From NCBI GenBank assembly GCA_010909725.1, contig JAACMV010000015.1:1-64000 (forward strand): a stretch of 64,000 nucleotides of DNA, given 5' to 3'. Shown here piece by piece: positions 1 to 64,000 of the stretch. The notes below the pieces were generated by a model. That model ran no database searches. It was not told the origin of the DNA and saw only the letters and a program-made list of their open reading frames with translations. The stretch's first letter is position 1, and each line of letters starts with the position of its first letter. A program made the position numbers and the translations under genes. This DNA comes from Picochlorum sp. 'celeri'. Its lineage: Eukaryota > Chlorophyta > Trebouxiophyceae.

Positions 1-22
1 CCCTATACCCTATACCCTGTGC
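1..22. repeat. Possible telomeric or telomere-like repeat remnant
   Basis: The window opens with two CCCTATA units followed by a CCCTGTG variant. C-rich 7-mers reading inward from the left edge are what a left chromosome end looks like, and the low-complexity, duplicated DNA that follows fits a subtelomere. TATAGGG differs from the TTTAGGG and TTAGGG types. With fewer than three units this could be chance, so confidence is low. Confidence 0.35.
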
Positions 23-28
23 CACCGT

Positions 29-510
29 CGTTCTTGGTGGGCGAGGGTAATGAGGGTAAATAAGACAATATTCACCCCCAGTCCACCGCCGCGACGCCCA
101 TTCCAAAATTAAATATGCAAAATAAAAATATAACCCACCCAAAAATATGAAAATATCCAAAAGAGACAAAATATAGCACAAAAATAACACCCCCAATAAG
201 ACCAAAATACCCTAACCAAAAATACACCAACGAAAAAAAACACGACAAAACAACAAAAATATGAAGAATTATTATTAGTATTATTATAGTAAGCACCTAC
301 TACTACTACTATATATACAACAACAACAACAACGACAAAAGACACGGCACACCACAAGCACTGCTGCTGCTGCTGCTACTCCTACTACTACTACTACTAC
401 AGCAAGAAGAGACAACCAACAAAATCCAAAGAAAAAATCAACAAAAGAAAAAATCTAGTAGGGAGAGAATCATTATGACATGCACAACAACAATATATAC
501 CACGATGCGA
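29..510. repeat. Subtelomeric direct repeat, copy 1
   Basis: This block starts at CGTTCTTGGTGGGCGAGGG and runs through AT-rich sequence with AAAATA, CAACAA and CTGCTG simple repeats to about position 510. It recurs at 553-1006 with point differences and small indels, mostly in the trinucleotide tracts. Long translations across it are low-complexity and are not supported as genes. Confidence 0.8.
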
Positions 511-552
511 TACTATAATTTATACTATAAGTGGAGCAGGGTAGAGCTACGA

Positions 553-1006
553 CGTTCTTGGTGGGCGAGGGTAATGAGGGTAAATAAGCCAATATTCACA
601 CCCAGTCCACTGCCGCTACGCCCATTCCAAAATTAAATATGCAAAATAAAAATATAACCCACCCAAAAATATGAAAATATCCAAAAGAGACAAAATATAG
701 CACAAAAATAACACCCCCAATAAGACCAAAATACCCTAACCAAAAAAACACCAACGAAAAAAAACACGACAAAACAACAAAAAATATGAAGAATTATTAT
801 TAGTATTATTATAGGAAGCACCTACTACTACTATATATACAACAACAACAACGACAAAAGACACGGCACACCACAAGCACTGCTGCTGCTGCTACTCCTA
901 CTACTACTACTACTACTACAGCAAAAGACAACCAACAAAATCCAAAGAAAAAATCTAGTAGGGAAAGAATCATTATGACACAACAACAATCTATACTATG
1001 CGATGC
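553..1006. repeat. Subtelomeric direct repeat, copy 2
   Basis: This is the second copy of the 29-510 block, in the same orientation with an offset of about 524 bp. It is slightly shorter because of contracted CAA, CTG and TAC tracts. Weak resemblance continues around 1430-1570 (CTGCTA tract, then ATAATAATAG and CATGCACAACAACAA), perhaps a third, decayed copy. Confidence 0.8.
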
Positions 1007-4965: not shown

Positions 4966-5130
4966 CTACATCTTTTGGCTTGCAAACCAGCCGAGGAATT
5001 CATTCAAATCCACAACACCATCCTCGTTGAAATCAAGCAAATAATAATAATCTGTAGAAATTCTCAGATCCTTTGAAGAATTTGCATGTACAATTGCAAC
5101 CGAGTCTCTATCCAGAGCATCTGTGCTTTT
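4966..5130 (-). other. EF-hand-like reading frame at the 3' end of the TAF1A-like gene
   Basis: In the minus-strand frame ending at the TAG at 4966-4968, the translation contains DFNEDGVVDLNEFLGWF. This has a complete EF-hand loop pattern (D-x-N-x-D-G-x-V-D-x-x-E) followed by a hydrophobic helix. The frame differs from that of the upstream gene, which stops at 5064, so it would need an extra splice or an alternative frame to be translated. It may be a gene fragment or an alternative C terminus. Confidence 0.3.
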
Positions 5131-38452: not shown

Positions 38453-38742
38453 CATTCATGCACACCATGTTATGCATTTACTTTTGTTGAACAATGCAAC
38501 AACATTTGGAAAGAGGAAAGGTGTTGCAGCAAATGGCCAAATAACACACACTTGGAAACGAATCTTAATGTGTATACACTGCGGCACGAACAATGGATGT
38601 GAGCGTGCTTTCTGGCAACTCTGAGATGTGAATGCAGCCATCAATCTTGCCAAGTTTTTCCTGTGGGAAGTCAATGGTGAGGAGAAAGCAAAAGTCTTCC
38701 AAAGGCCTCAGAAACGAGCAGAGGAGGACGATATTTTTGAAA
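38453..38742 (+). pseudogene. Decayed, internally deleted Fanzor copy
   Basis: Two parts of the Fanzor reading frame are present and the middle is gone. The 5' part matches the intact gene at IHAHHVMHLLLL and THLETNLNVY, clearly at nucleotide level. It runs straight into the C-terminal zinc-finger/RuvC-III region (TNNGCERAFW, then DVNAAINLAKFF), with a frame change at the join near 38580. A TGA sits where WDRDVN-type proteins have Arg. The tail NGEEKAKVFQRP is shared with the scrap at 4663 but not with the intact Fanzor. A transposon relic starts at 38745, interrupting or ending the frame. Confidence 0.75.
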
Positions 38743-53682: not shown

Positions 53683-54439
53683 CGTCAGAAAGGAGGAGTT
53701 GAGCCTCTGCAACATCACATTGCCTACGGATTTGAAGTCCGCACCCAGGACCGCCTGGGGTCATTCTGACATGAACAACAAGAAAATAAATGAACAAAAA
53801 GTAGGGGTCAGATCGGTATTCACAAGGAAGCTCTTTCGTAACAAGGTAGGTGGGGCGAGCTCTCCCTTCAGGCAGCCACGAATCAACGCACGCCTGTACA
53901 AACCACTCATCAATCCCCGTCAGAACCTCCTTCTAGATCATGATTTTGACAACCAATCACTAGAAAGAAGTGGAAGGATCTGAGGGGAGAGCCGCCACCG
54001 CCGAGCCTACATATGCCTTGTTCTTTGGACACGGATTCGGGAGAATATTCCAAGATGCCTATGATGTATTCCAATCGAACGTCCAAGGGCAGTCACTAAC
54101 TTGTGTTTTCTTTTACTCTTAAGCATTTAATCCAATTTTGAAGCTCGTCATTCGCACAGGTACGCACACATCTGCTTGGGGACGCAATATATGAACAGTT
54201 CTGACCAGTGGTTGTGGCATGTGAACGTGTTTCTGACACAACTCGCCCGGGCTTTATCCATCGGAGTGGCAGATTCAATAATATTGAAAAACACAGACTT
54301 GTTTGCCGTCCTCATGAACGTAACAAAAGCCTGATGGTATGTTTCCGACCTTGGTGCAGGAGGTTCGTTTGCATTGTGTCACTCGATTTGATCGCGTGGC
54401 GTCAGCTAGGAATATACTAGCCTCGAAATTACACAATAT
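53683..54439. other. Long intergenic stretch without a clear gene
   Basis: About 750 bp. An ORF at 53771-53983 (MNNKKINEQKVGVRSVFTRK) is basic and might be a small gene, but no family is seen. The rest has short frames only. It should hold the EXECUTER promoter. I found no tRNA or other RNA gene in it. Confidence 0.4.
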
Positions 54440-58393: not shown

Positions 58394-59472
<1,079 letters not shown>

Positions 59473-59574
59473 GCTTCTCTCTTCTTTTTTCCTGGAGCTT
59501 GTGAAGATTGACAGTCTGCTGCTGCTGGTTATGCCAGCGAGAGACTACTGACTTTGACAAATTATATTCATACT

Positions 59575-59590
59575 GGTGTTATTCAACACC
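59575..59590 (+). terminator. Histone H3 mRNA 3' stem-loop
   Basis: GGTGTT, ATTC loop, AACACC: a perfect 6-bp stem 103 nt after the H3 stop, same sequence as after H2A and H2B. Confidence 0.85.
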
Positions 59591-59825
59591 ACCATATTAT
59601 GATCATGGAAATACTGTCTTCTCTTAGAGATGATCTCTACGATACTGTGGATGCTCACTTCGAGCAACACCACTAAAGATAGGAAAACACATCATACATA
59701 CACTTCATGTACATTTGAATATTTTACAACAAGGTTTCTGATATCATGTAGAGGGAGTGAGTCGTCCATTCATTCATTCAAGTATGTGTGAAAAAGCACA
59801 CAAGTTTCCAAAACTAATACATGGT
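59591..59825. other. Spacer between convergent H3 and H2A stem-loops
   Basis: 235 bp between the two histone 3' ends, AT-rich, with a CATTCATTCATTC run at about 59768-59780. Nothing else seen. Confidence 0.4.
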
Positions 59826-59841
59826 GGTGTTGAATAACACC
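59826..59841 (-). terminator. Histone H2A mRNA 3' stem-loop
   Basis: On the minus strand GGTGTT, ATTC, AACACC, 44 nt past the H2A stop; identical to the H3 and H2B elements. Confidence 0.85.
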
Positions 59842-59885
59842 AGTTGATTGTTTGAATTGTTGTTGTAAGCAAGCAGCAGCAGGAT

Positions 59886-60260
59886 TTACTCCTTCTTTCC
59901 ACTCTTCTTTGGGAGAAGAACTGCGTGGATGTTTGGCAACACACCTCCCTCGGCAATGGTGACACCAGCCAAGAGCTTGCTCAACTCCTCATCGTTTCTG
60001 ACAGCAAGCTGAATGTGCCTTGGCACAATTCTGGTCTTCTTGTTGTCACGAGCAGCGTTACCTGCAAGCTCGAGAACCTCAGCAGCCAAGTACTCGAGGA
60101 CGGCAGCAAGGTACACTGGGGCACCAGCTCCAATTCTCTCAGCATAGCGTCCCTTCTTGAGGTATCTGGCCACACGACCAACTGGGAACTGAAGCCCAGC
60201 CTTGGCTGACTTGGTCATAGACTTCTTGCCAGAAGACTTTCCTTTTCCACGTCCAGACAT
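59886..60260 (-). CDS. Histone H2A
   Basis: 124 residues. [21 protein letters not shown] terminus, [48 protein letters not shown], and a short tail [10 protein letters not shown] without an SQE(E/D) motif, so it is canonical rather than H2A.X. The start is the ATG at 60260 (MSGRG), not the upstream in-frame codon. Divergent from H2B across 321 bp. Confidence 0.97.
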
Positions 60261-60581
60261 GATGTTACGTTGTGAGTAGTTGATAGATTCAAACACAAGT
60301 GGTTGAGATTATTTGTTTTATAGTATCCAACGGCCGGGAGTTGCAACGAATCTGTAACCAGACCTCGAGACGATTGCATGCGAACAAGGCCTTGGAGACC
60401 GGGAGTGGGGTCCAACCGGATATCTGACATATCTGGGTCTATGGTCATCCCGGGCGCTGACGCGTTCCTCCATTCCATGACCGCTCTCGGCATTCTAGGA
60501 AACTTGAGGACACCTCGCAACCACGTCTACACAAAACAAATAATTTTGTAATCACTCAGTGAATCACAAATATCAATTACA
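60261..60581. promoter_or_regulatory. Shared divergent promoter of H2A and H2B
   Basis: 321 bp between start codons; contains CGAGACGATTGC (about 60366) and a CCGGGAGT/GACCGGGAGT pair (60333, 60399) that could be shared factor sites. No named element is certain. Confidence 0.4.
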
Positions 60582-61002
60582 ATGGCTCCAACATCTGCTA
60601 AGAAACCAGGAAAGACCGTCAAGGACGGAAAGAAGGCCAAGAAGTCAGTGGAGAGCTACAAGCTCTACATCTTCAAGGTGCTCAAGCAGGTGCACCCAGA
60701 CACTGGAATCTCTTCCAAGGCCATGGCCATCTTGAACTCTTTCATTGCTGACCAGTTCGAGAAGATTGCCTCCCAGGCTGCTCAGGTAGGTGAAGGAAGA
60801 TTTGACATGAATGACTCAACTCAACAGTCCTCTGACATACGTGTATGATATCCATCTGATGCAGTTGTCTCGTGTCAACAAGAAGCCAACCTTGACATCC
60901 CGCGAAATCCAGACCGCTGTGCGCTTGGTCCTCCCAGGAGAGCTTGCCAAGCATGCCGTGTCTGAGGGAACCAAGGCTGTGACCAAGTTCACCTCTGCCT
61001 AA
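60582..61002 (+). CDS. Histone H2B, with an intron
   Basis: 113 residues after splicing. Exon 1 (60582-60785) encodes the Lys-rich tail and [20 protein letters not shown] to SQAAQ; intron 60786-60864 (GTAGGT, ATGCAG, 79 nt); exon 2 (60865-61002) resumes at [21 protein letters not shown] and ends AVTKFTSA. Unspliced reading ends after 88 codons. An intron in a stem-loop-type histone gene is unusual. A stem-loop follows 48 nt after the stop. Confidence 0.96.
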
Positions 61003-61049
61003 GCGCATTGCTGATGAGCATAGTACTCTGAACAAAAAAACAATCAACT

Positions 61050-61138: not shown

Positions 61139-61234
61139 TGTCATCGCCGAGAATTGAACTCGAGACTTCACGGTATTGAACCTCTCGTGGGGTTGATCCC
61201 ACAACGTGACGTGATACCACTTCACCACGATGAC
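61139..61234 (-). tRNA. tRNA-His (anticodon GTG) with a 25-nt intron
   Basis: The cloverleaf was worked out by hand. Acceptor GTCATCG/CGATGAC, 7 perfect pairs, discriminator A. D-arm GTGA/TCAC with loop AGTGGTA; anticodon stem TCACG/CGTGA; loop TTGTGG-C with anticodon GTG; T-arm TCGAG/CTCGG (one G-T pair) with loop TTCAATT. The 25-nt insert (61174-61198) lies after position 37, the usual place of nuclear tRNA introns. Position -1 would be T-encoded on this strand, so the extra G of tRNA-His would be added post-transcriptionally as in other eukaryotes. Confidence 0.85.
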
Positions 61235-61563
61235 TGTACAACGGAAAGAATGTGCGTTCATTCTGCAATTTTTCAATGTATATTAATATGTGTGGGGCAC
61301 CCGCGGCCCTGTGACCATACTTTTTTGGATCCTCTGAAGGCAGAATTTTTACCTGGCCGACATCGCACAATCCCTCGTGACCAGAGGAGTCAGAATAGGC
61401 GCATCGGAACCACAAGTGTGCTCCATTATCATGCCTCTTTTACAGTAAAATTTTTTAATTTCGTTTGTCGGACGGAATGTTCCAAACTTGGAAGTTCCAT
61501 CGTTCTCTCTGCTGTATCTTGAAGCATAGCGTCTGCAAAAAGCAGCCGACTTACATGCCGAAT
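61235..61563. other. 3' flank of the Fanzor gene, candidate guide-RNA region
   Basis: About 330 bp between the Fanzor stop and the tRNA-His gene. In other Fanzor and TnpB loci the guide RNA is transcribed from the 3' end of the nuclease ORF and beyond, on the same strand; here that is this stretch. I see GC-rich potential hairpins (around 61290-61315, GGGGCACCCGCGGCCC) but cannot define an RNA. No terminal inverted repeat is obvious. Confidence 0.3.
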
Positions 61564-63915
61564 TCATTGCCGTGTTGATGTCCTTTGCCTTTTCCTCGTC
61601 CTCTTGAAAGCCTTGATTCGAGATCCATTGTGACACTTTTCCAAAAACAAGTCTTTGATATTGATACTGGCATTGACATCACGGTCCCAAACATTTCGAA
61701 TGCATTCATTGTTGTGACAACGTTTCATCCTGAATTGTTTGTTGTACTGTTCCATTGCCTCATGACAGCAAGAACAGAGTTTGGACGTATTGAATTCATT
61801 AACCAACACAACTGTGGCACATTCCGATACCTTGTTGAACAGTTTTGTGCTCATGATAGGAGCAGTGCCCCTCATTGTGCCGTTATTATCACCATCACCA
61901 TACGCCACGATGACTCTCTTCTGTGCCTCTTTGTTTCTTGTTCCACAGATTCGAGCAACCACATCCTCCATGGCCGACTTTTCCTTGCAAAATTTCCTCA
62001 TCTTCTGTTTCTGATACCATTTTTTGTCATCGAAGAAGGCTTGTTGCAGTTGGGGCCACATAGAAACTTGGAATCTGTAACTCTCAAAAATTTTCTCAAG
62101 ATCTACTGTCTTGTATGTTGGCACAGACACCCATGCAGGACAGTATTCAGACATCCTTTTCTTTATTTTGGCTGTATACTGTTTCTGACTAGATAAGAAG
62201 ATCCATTCTCCTGACCCCAGAGAATCACTTTTATATCTGTCTTCCACCTCTGTATGACGACCATTTTCTGCATTCCACTTTGCATGGATCTTTTGCTTTT
62301 CCGAATCATGAAAAACCCACGTGGCCGCTGACTTTTTACCTGGGTCCAAACCGACAATGATACAATCTGTGTGATATATACCATGGTCATCTTTGCGTAT
62401 GCCAGCCAACCTTTTGATCCTTTCTGTGATGACTGTCTTGTCTTTGTTTTTAGCCTTTCGTTTCTGTAGAACGTCCTTTTGTGACTTTAATGTATGCAAC
62501 AATGGCTTCAGTAGAACATAATGTATGGTGGAAATGTCACCAAGGAGAATACGCAAAGGGTCATATCTGATCTTTTTTGCAATAATGTTGGTTGCAAACA
62601 TCCCACAATAGGTGGCCCACAACTTTGCTTTGACGTAATTCATATCATCCTGCAGATGGATTATCTTGCATTCCAGATCCGACTTCACAGTGTCTATAAC
62701 AGCAGAAACAGAGACGCCATCAGTGCATATAGAGCATCCGAATCTGAGTTTCGTTTGGTCCTTCATGTGCTTTTTTTTCAATACTCGCTTCATGTTGAAT
62801 ATCGATTTCCAATAATAATACTTATTTGTATAGTCATCCAGTGCTGGACAGTCATCTACTATCTTTCTGATATATGGATATTTCTTTGCGAGTTGCTCAA
62901 CCATAGTCTTCACTGCTGTGCTGGAGATATGGATATGCTTTGGTTTCCAGGCCATCTGTGGACACAGACAAAATGTCCATTTCTGTCTTCCAAGTATACT
63001 CTTCTTCCCTTCAAACTCTCCGTTTCTGAACCTCTGTTGCAGTGATTCCACGAATGGCTCCAAGTGACCCAAAATGAAGAAGCAAATTCTGGATTTCTCA
63101 GAAAGAGTTGTCGTCTTTGGCACCAACGAGCAAATGATATCCAAGGCTCTCTGTGCTTCATCCCATACTGACACATCAGACGCAAATTCTGTCAATGATG
63201 GTCTACGTTCAACAATATCACTGACTTTCGTCCTCTCCCAGAATGCCTGTGTGATTGCAGAAAATACTTGTCCAAACTTCTTCTTTGACAAATTTTTGAT
63301 TTGGTCAAAGTCCGTGTCGTCTCGAAATAGCAAATATCTCAGATACCGTAATGCATATACATTAAGATTGGTTTCCAAATGCGTGGTATGCATAACAGAC
63401 GACTGCTGGGCCATCTGCTCCATTGTTTTGTCTCTCCAAGAAGAGAGACAACCCTGTGGCCAATCTGTTTTTAACCCAGTCTCCTCACAATATTCCTTGC
63501 ACAAGTCGCGCAAGTTGGTATCAACATCCTTTCTCTCCTTCTTTTGTTGCAAATGATTAGCAAGGTGTCTGTAGATTTTGTTGTAGAGTTCGTAGAGAGA
63601 TTCATCTTTGTGGTCTCTAAATGCCCCACCGTTCCTCAATAACAATAGATGCATGACATGATGCGCATGAATCTGTAGTCTACTCAGGTAGAATACACAT
63701 TCTTCAATTTCGCGTTGAACCACTTTGAACTTACAAAAAGGCTGCAAAGTGCACTTGACGACTGTCTTATTGAAAAAACGGTCTTTATCCTTCTTTATAG
63801 CCACATCCAATCGAGTAAACTTCTTTTTCTTCACCTTTTTCGATGGTGTGGCGGACACCTTTCTCTTTTTTTTCATTTTGAAATGACACGGTTGGCGATG
63901 GCGGCTCGACTTCAT
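61564..63915 (-). CDS. Fanzor: eukaryotic TnpB-like RNA-guided nuclease, apparently intact
   Basis: 783 residues from the ATG at 63915, no stop or intron. TnpB-lineage RuvC motifs in order: GLDPGKKSAATW with the first Asp (D524), VVLVNEFNTSKLCSCC with the Glu (E707) and the first zinc-finger Cys pair, RCHNNEC (second pair) and VWDRDVNASINI with the last Asp (D746). A classic basic nuclear signal (KKKRKV) sits near the N terminus. The N-terminal half is helical and Lys-rich with the THLETNLNVYALRYL block shared with the relic at 38.5 kb. Family members cut DNA guided by an RNA from their own 3' flank. No TIR or duplication is visible at the window edge. Activity is inferred, not shown. Confidence 0.9.
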   Translation of the reverse strand: MKSSRHRQPCHFKMKKKRKVSATPSKKVKKKKFTRLDVAIKKDKDRFFNKTVVKCTLQPFCKFKVVQREIEECVFYLSRLQIHAHHVMHLLLLRNGGAFRDHKDESLYELYNKIYRHLANHLQQKKERKDVDTNLRDLCKEYCEETGLKTDWPQGCLSSWRDKTMEQMAQQSSVMHTTHLETNLNVYALRYLRYLLFRDDTDFDQIKNLSKKKFGQVFSAITQAFWERTKVSDIVERRPSLTEFASDVSVWDEAQRALDIICSLVPKTTTLSEKSRICFFILGHLEPFVESLQQRFRNGEFEGKKSILGRQKWTFCLCPQMAWKPKHIHISSTAVKTMVEQLAKKYPYIRKIVDDCPALDDYTNKYYYWKSIFNMKRVLKKKHMKDQTKLRFGCSICTDGVSVSAVIDTVKSDLECKIIHLQDDMNYVKAKLWATYCGMFATNIIAKKIRYDPLRILLGDISTIHYVLLKPLLHTLKSQKDVLQKRKAKNKDKTVITERIKRLAGIRKDDHGIYHTDCIIVGLDPGKKSAATWVFHDSEKQKIHAKWNAENGRHTEVEDRYKSDSLGSGEWIFLSSQKQYTAKIKKRMSEYCPAWVSVPTYKTVDLEKIFESYRFQVSMWPQLQQAFFDDKKWYQKQKMRKFCKEKSAMEDVVARICGTRNKEAQKRVIVAYGDGDNNGTMRGTAPIMSTKLFNKVSECATVVLVNEFNTSKLCSCCHEAMEQYNKQFRMKRCHNNECIRNVWDRDVNASINIKDLFLEKCHNGSRIKAFKRTRKRQRTSTRQ

Positions 63916-64000
63916 ACCAATCCAAGGTTCTAGAAGATTCGGATTGACCAGAGTCAAATGGACTAGATGTTACATTCCTTAATTAAACGAAATTTAAAAT
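63916..64000. other. Upstream flank of the Fanzor gene, cut by window end
   Basis: 85 bp; contains TTAATTAA and in-frame stops upstream of the ORF, so the Fanzor does not extend further. Promoter or transposon end cannot be judged. Confidence 0.4.

Follow-up and report, generated by a model that had tools for sequence, protein, structure and literature searches.

A Fanzor1 gene as sole cargo of a short inverted-repeat element in Picochlorum celeri, with allele patterns that may fit homing

Here we analysed a stretch of 64,000 nucleotides from the green alga Picochlorum sp. 'celeri' (GenBank assembly GCA_010909725.1, contig JAACMV010000015.1, positions 1 to 64,000), referred to below as the window. 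It belongs to contig C15 of the genome (G000; 27,412,692 bases in 30 contigs). Near its end lies an intact gene that, in our view with good confidence, encodes a Fanzor1 OMEGA nuclease with RNA-guided cutting and is all that a short, non-autonomous element of pogo/Tc1-mariner type carries. More tentatively, and on sequence comparisons, this Fanzor may act as a natural homing drive in a diploid nucleus, cutting the element-free homologue beside a 5'-ATA motif so that repair copies the element in.

The open reading frame (ORF) runs for 783 codons without a stop (61567-63915, minus strand; stop codon at 61564-61566), as the original prediction had claimed from the letters alone. In 300 mononucleotide shuffles of 61441-64000, the longest stop-free run averaged 102 codons and never exceeded 190. 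The three RuvC acidic residues, the zinc finger and the KKKRKV-type stretch that had been read in the frame are likewise all in place, the last of these being a putative nuclear localisation signal.

61564..63915, minus strand: intact Fanzor1 ORF of 783 codons and a stop codon, with translation probably starting at Met14 (63876)
62338..62352, minus strand: RuvC-I motif GLDPG, residues 522-526, with D524 and the Fanzor-type DPG
61774..61800, minus strand: RuvC-II motif NEFNTSKLC, residues 706-714, with the alternative glutamate E707
61702..61776, minus strand: C4 zinc finger, C714-x2-C717 ... C733-x4-C738
61672..61689, minus strand: RuvC-III motif WDRDVN, residues 743-748, with D746
63856..63876, minus strand: basic stretch MKKKRKV, residues 14-20, putative nuclear localisation signal

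The proposed Fanzor identity is borne out by several features besides the alternative glutamate. The frame matches PF07282, the TnpB/Fanzor zinc-ribbon domain, at 35.4 bits against a Pfam cut-off of 26.3 (E 1.2e-8), and the best matches of its predicted fold, a low-confidence model, are the solved Fanzor1s. E707 stands six residues ahead of the zinc finger and is nearly invariant in a 15-sequence alignment. A sequence profile lines it up with the Glu of GtFz1 and matches both the RuvC-II and the RuvC-III residues to a solved Fanzor1. DPG is near exclusive to Fanzors and serves as a criterion for their RuvC-I (PMC10711439; here and below, papers are cited for the portions of their text available to us). 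By profile match and modelled fold, the gene at 61564-63915 is thus assigned to Fanzor1. Other databases gave little: a weak 'transposase' match in PHROGs (E 0.0025), no match in NCBIfam, and only a chance lectin match in a direct sequence search of the PDB with the single protein.

A first protein search returned 13 relatives, 12 of 700-814 aa and one 557-aa piece. A second, alignment-based family search, in which 8,000 candidates were scored, gave 11 proteins, with the partial P0014 as the one new entry. P0001 is 98% identical to the window Fanzor and one residue off the copies at site C (below). A viral origin was rejected, since scans of viral contigs yielded 13 pattern matches with the single protein and 39 with the 15-sequence alignment, none of them confirmed as a relative. 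In an alignment with 14 relatives (A1), 11 begin at the position of Met14; P0006 starts further in, P0013 has another extension, and only the near-identical P0001 has residues 1-13. Because of these 11 starts, and because over its first ~130 bases the element can be aligned with the 5' end of a transposase-carrying one described below, the true start is probably Met14 (63876), with residues 1-13 likely outside the protein.

Alignment of the copies in the genome placed the element ends at 61441 and 64010, where homology between copies stops abruptly on both sides. The element therefore overruns the window by 10 bp.

61441..64000 in the window, to 64010, minus strand: Fanzor-only transposable element, 2,570 bp, with sharp homology limits among copies
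61441..61466, plus strand: right-end (3') terminal inverted repeat (TIR) TACAGTAAAATTTTTTAATTTCGTTT, TA included, by terminal pattern match
63985..64000 (full 63985-64010), minus strand: left-end (5') TIR TACCGTAAAAATTTTAAATTTCGTTT, cut by the window end

The two TIRs agree in 23 of their 26 positions, and both are tipped by TA. The Fanzor gene is the sole cargo, and because no DDE transposase ORF is present inside the 2,570 bp we call the element non-autonomous; typed by its ends and not by a gene, it appears to be of pogo/Tc1-mariner type. The gene had been described as having a tRNA-His, and no obvious transposon partner, at its side. The tRNA is real (61139-61234, minus strand, 52.2 bits; missed by ARAGORN), its His identity and its intron being a reading of the anticodon loop. 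The second half of that statement does not hold: the gene lies inside a TIR- and TA-bounded element whose end is ~200 bases from the tRNA, and the genome also contains a related composite that carries a DDE_1 transposase.

A whole-genome search for the end pattern with up to 3 mismatches found 48 ends, compared with none for a reversed control pattern. The element occupies 21 places: 17 complete, two interrupted by another insertion (site C), one on C11 that lost its 5' end to a 66-bp deletion, and one remnant with only a 5' end at C22:14081. The remaining eight ends come from related places on C2, C22, C3, C23, C5 and C20 that are short, composite or single-ended. One of these is a 531-bp element without Fanzor (C2:1322212-1322742), whose TIRs are related to those of the Fanzor element and which is comparable to the 'ghost' elements of SPu-1; matching ends of this type occur on C22, and single ends on C3 and C23. 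TA stands at both tips in 16/16 loci with both ends readable (of 19 loci). There was no simple case of an empty allele with a single TA; at C15:5047-5050 the partner has an 8-kb insertion.

The intact 783-codon frame is found in 13 copies, and single-base indels, some beside homopolymers, break several others. Relative to the window copy, intact frames differ by one substitution in the C27 allele, 4-11 at other sites and 38 at site C. So few substitutions point to a recent burst, and the earlier claim that the family has been active in this genome agrees with the presence of about twenty near-identical copies. Its companion claim, of two decayed relatives in the window, was half right: one small remnant is present and no second was found.

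38454..38711, plus strand: decayed Fanzor remnant, with pieces of the N-terminal region and the zinc-finger/RuvC-III end

The two site C copies alone have in common a substitution-dense tract at element positions ~512-683, as if recombined with another Fanzor lineage; the same site carries the foreign insertion in its 5' end. A contig end is no more than 70 kb away at seven of the nine sites (P 3.4e-5 against a uniform spread, with the 70-kb limit set post hoc).

The transposase-bearing relative is on C20. Here an ORF of at least 834 aa with a DDE_1 match (49.4 bits) adjoins a Fanzor with 51% identity to that of the window over 754 aligned residues, and both genes are enclosed by ends of the same type (C20:34488, C20:40512). 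The 5' end of this composite can be aligned to the first ~130 bases of the window element and has a GAGCCGCCATCGCCA block in common with it. The window element looks like a Fanzor-only derivative of such a two-gene kind of element, with the C20 composite as a cousin rather than the parent because of the protein divergence. Between the two Fanzors, the proportion of nonsynonymous differences (pN) is 0.34 and that of synonymous differences (pS) 0.76, the latter saturated, which suggests long-term constraint. A C5 counterpart of the composite has stops in the Fanzor and matches only part of the transposase domain. DDE_1 was found in eight places in the genome and DDE_3 in none; Transposase_1 also had no genome match, but its control matched nowhere, so that its absence is not proven. 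None of the Fanzor element's ends lies within 1.5 kb of the domain at five other DDE_1 loci (L056 and L058-L061). The composite's own locus cut in the same way (L057) shows no ends either, so this lack does not exclude the five. L056 has a 22-nt inverted repeat that differs in sequence from that of the Fanzor element. Larger relatives were also seen, among them a 1,020-aa protein on C20 (L052:463-3525) with GIDMG for DPG in RuvC-I and an alternative-type Glu (LVDEHRSSMNC), as well as open frames of 975-1,034 aa on C10, C11, C14 and C19 and of 988 aa on C16.

For the RNA and its target we looked to SpuFz1 elements, in which the RNA passes the right repeat 14-15 nt into flanking DNA, the target-adjacent motif (TAM) is CATA, and cutting occurs after bases 16-17 and 20-21 (PMC10432273). 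In the window element, the base ahead of the left TA is A in 11/11 distinct 5' flanks, whereas in the window at large A precedes a fraction of 0.355 of TA dinucleotides. The right TA is followed by A, C or T, and the element's own right end reads CTG-TA. Because the left flanks are uniformly A-TA while the right end is G-TA, we predict a 5'-ATA TAM, with which a filled site would be spared from recutting. The corresponding RNA parts can be placed as follows.

61441..61580, minus strand: predicted omegaRNA scaffold (gene end, 3' non-coding stretch and right TIR), by analogy with SpuFz1
61421..61440, minus strand: predicted guide segment AAAGAGGCATGATAATGG, flank just past the right end, positioned by the same analogy

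The window element and the C20 composite have largely retained a common 26-base block at the stop codon, and the consensus of these two sequences has a short hairpin after the stop codon. Rfam gave no omegaRNA-like family over 61400-61700.

Together these parts suggest a cycle. A transposase acting in trans would move the element to TA sites, and an omegaRNA running from the 3' end of the gene through the right TIR would have as its guide the DNA just past the element. Fanzor would then cut matching element-free DNA beside a 5'-ATA TAM and spare the filled site, whose right end has G and not A ahead of TA. Least certain is the step in which the cut homologue, or the site left by excision, would be repaired and the element thereby copied in, so that insertions would be kept and spread to both homologues. 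The guide RNA, the cleavage and the homing are in this sense what we infer.

The P. celeri assembly has been described as a phased diploid of 27.43 Mb with two sets of 15 scaffolds and 46% G+C (PMC7225527), and allelic pairs of copies, told by their common flanks, fit a diploid genome. Eight sites could be placed on paired contigs, and seven of them (A, C, D, E, F, G and H) have the element on both. Group I, the ninth, is located in duplicated blocks (C1, C21, C13, C29) and was left out of the allele comparison. At site B, the element on C27 is part of an 8-kb insertion, and the C15 sequence runs through 5047/5048 without interruption.

5047..5050, plus strand: uninterrupted site (..AATAATA/ATCTG..) matching element C27:10464-13033

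The insertion (L063, C27:5070-13033, against window 5047/5048) consists of a second subtelomere-like block and the Fanzor element between common flanks, which rules out that the terminal 10 kb of C27 simply replace those of C15. The haplotype difference itself may be real or a misassembly.

Allele divergence was counted in substitutions, with single-base indels outside the count (one such indel lies within the element at G and another at H). At site A the element has 1/2570 and the flank 66/14920; at site H, 0/2570 and 18/10755; at site G, 0/2569 and 8/2776. Site C has 0/2544 in the element and 18/11157 in the flank, the nearest 1.4 kb on the 5' side being another inserted element with none. 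For site F the counts are 0/2498 and 77/2763, with the first 72 element bases, deleted in C11, omitted. Summed over the five sites, the element has 1/12751 and the flanks 187/42371 (Fisher 2e-20, or 4e-10 without F). The flanks of D and E are identical over 1.4 kb on each side and thus uninformative; D differs by one base inside the element. Because the differences are clumped, flank windows of equal size make the fairer comparison, and those as low as the element number 0/99 at A, 8/72 at C and 30/69 at H, the flanks of F and G being too short.

This pattern is consistent with the element having been copied from one homologue to the other once the two had diverged, as in homing. If homing does operate, which we consider possible but less than probable, it would leave insertions on both homologues in flanks that are still heterozygous, sometimes with a small scar such as the 3-nt difference at +21 to +23 of site G. 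Indel differences between 3' flank alleles (L005, L006, L008, L018, L015, L016) do lie within ~23 bases of the right end at sites F, G and I: by ~14 bases from +1 past the element at F, by the three bases just named at G, and from +20, in a low-complexity stretch, among the copies of I. The first 30 bases 3' of the element show no allele difference at A, C, D, E and H. The differences are possibly scars near the expected cut position, a lead noticed post hoc.

Several points weigh against homing and its predicted parts. Local loss of heterozygosity, gene conversion or assembly collapse could possibly give the same allele pattern, and control DDE_1 allele pairs are mixed, one with 0/3,630 and the other with 15/3,623 substitutions (their element limits are unknown). 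A transposase preference would give the same A-TA flanks, the C20 composite has T ahead of its TA, and the minimum free energy fold of the 3' non-coding stretch is no better than that of shuffles (z -0.83).

The Fanzor could instead be passive cargo, spread by a transposase in trans and by subtelomeric recombination, with the nuclease unused for retention. We regard this as a serious possibility, if somewhat less than probable. It would account for the similar nonsynonymous and synonymous divergence (dN and dS) among recent copies, for the clustering of seven of nine sites near contig ends, where duplicated blocks recombine, and for the substitution-free member of the two control pairs. Less readily explained are the persistence of 13 intact frames, the constraint against the C20 relative, and the one-sided A-TA flank opposite a G-TA right end, which is as the TAM predicts.

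The low divergence of allelic elements could also be an artefact of assembly or polishing, with FALCON-Phase sharing one sequence between pseudo-haplotypes or repeat reads mapping across copies, and this too we find credible without favouring it. The available text of the Picochlorum paper reports pseudohap output and describes no short-read polishing (PMC7225527), the D and E flanks are identical, and the indels breaking several copies fall partly at homopolymers. Against an artefact stand the heterozygous flanks at A, C, F, G and H, and five pairs (C, D, F, G and H) with variants shared by the two alleles and absent from the other aligned sites, which therefore argue against homogenisation across sites. 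It is very improbable that we are dealing with a prokaryotic TnpB or with contaminant DNA in an algal contig: PF07282 is indeed common to Fanzor and TnpB (PMC3627910), but the same contig has histone ORFs and a selenocysteine tRNA gene, copies are spread across the assembly, and the gene has the DPG, the alternative glutamate and a modelled fold nearest to that of Fanzor1s.

Fanzor1 in Tc/mariner elements, with or without a transposase, has already been published (PMC3627910). The window element resembles SPu-1/SpuFz1 of Spizellomyces punctatus (Bao and Jurka 2013; Saito et al. 2023), an element of ~2.1 kb with TIRs of 30-33 bp: both are Fanzor1-only with one ORF, TIRs, putative TA duplications, a conserved motif ahead of the 5' repeat (CA in SPu-1, A here), ghost elements and multicopy genes. 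The window element differs in its 2,570-bp length and in its own ends and protein. A related transposase-bearing element is present in Picochlorum, while the available text of Saito et al. reports none between SPu-1 repeats (PMC10432273). PGv-1, PUl-1 and PUl-4, which are Fanzor1 elements in Tc/mariner, have TIRs and TA, some with a transposase and some with Fanzor only; the two-gene element on C20 is set apart by its DDE_1 ORF of at least 834 aa. Auxenochlorella UTEX 250-A, likewise a streamlined, phased diploid trebouxiophyte, has an abundant Fanzor repeat that is called uncharacterised (PMC12633428) and that we liken to ours by description, not sequence. The TnpB gene drive of IS200/605 in plasmids follows the same proposed logic, in which the nuclease cuts element-free copies and the element spreads. 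That drive is bacterial and plasmid-borne, whereas homing here would take place in a eukaryotic diploid nucleus. In the part of the Fanzor literature covered we found no description of this element family, nor of these elements in the available texts on Fanzor and Picochlorum; literature combining Fanzor and subtelomeric location yielded nothing.

What makes the family valuable is where it sits: a single small algal genome provides many guides, both homologues in resolved form and a related transposase gene. The biological role of Fanzor cleavage is given as unknown by Saito et al. (PMC10432273), and P. celeri has been reported to be editable with Cas9. The copies offer named guides, a predicted TAM, intact and end-less variants and one site that is element-free on one homologue, so that whether Fanzor keeps or spreads its transposon is directly testable here.

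Elsewhere in the window, the contig opens with CCCTATACCCTATACCCTGTG and a subtelomere-like unit, which recurs ~530 bp further on (window 1-1000); by eye, no plain TTTAGGG-type array was seen in the first 2.4 kb. The selenocysteine tRNA gene lies at 53683-53770, and the histone ORFs, read as H4, H3, H2A and H2B, form a cluster at 58394-61020.
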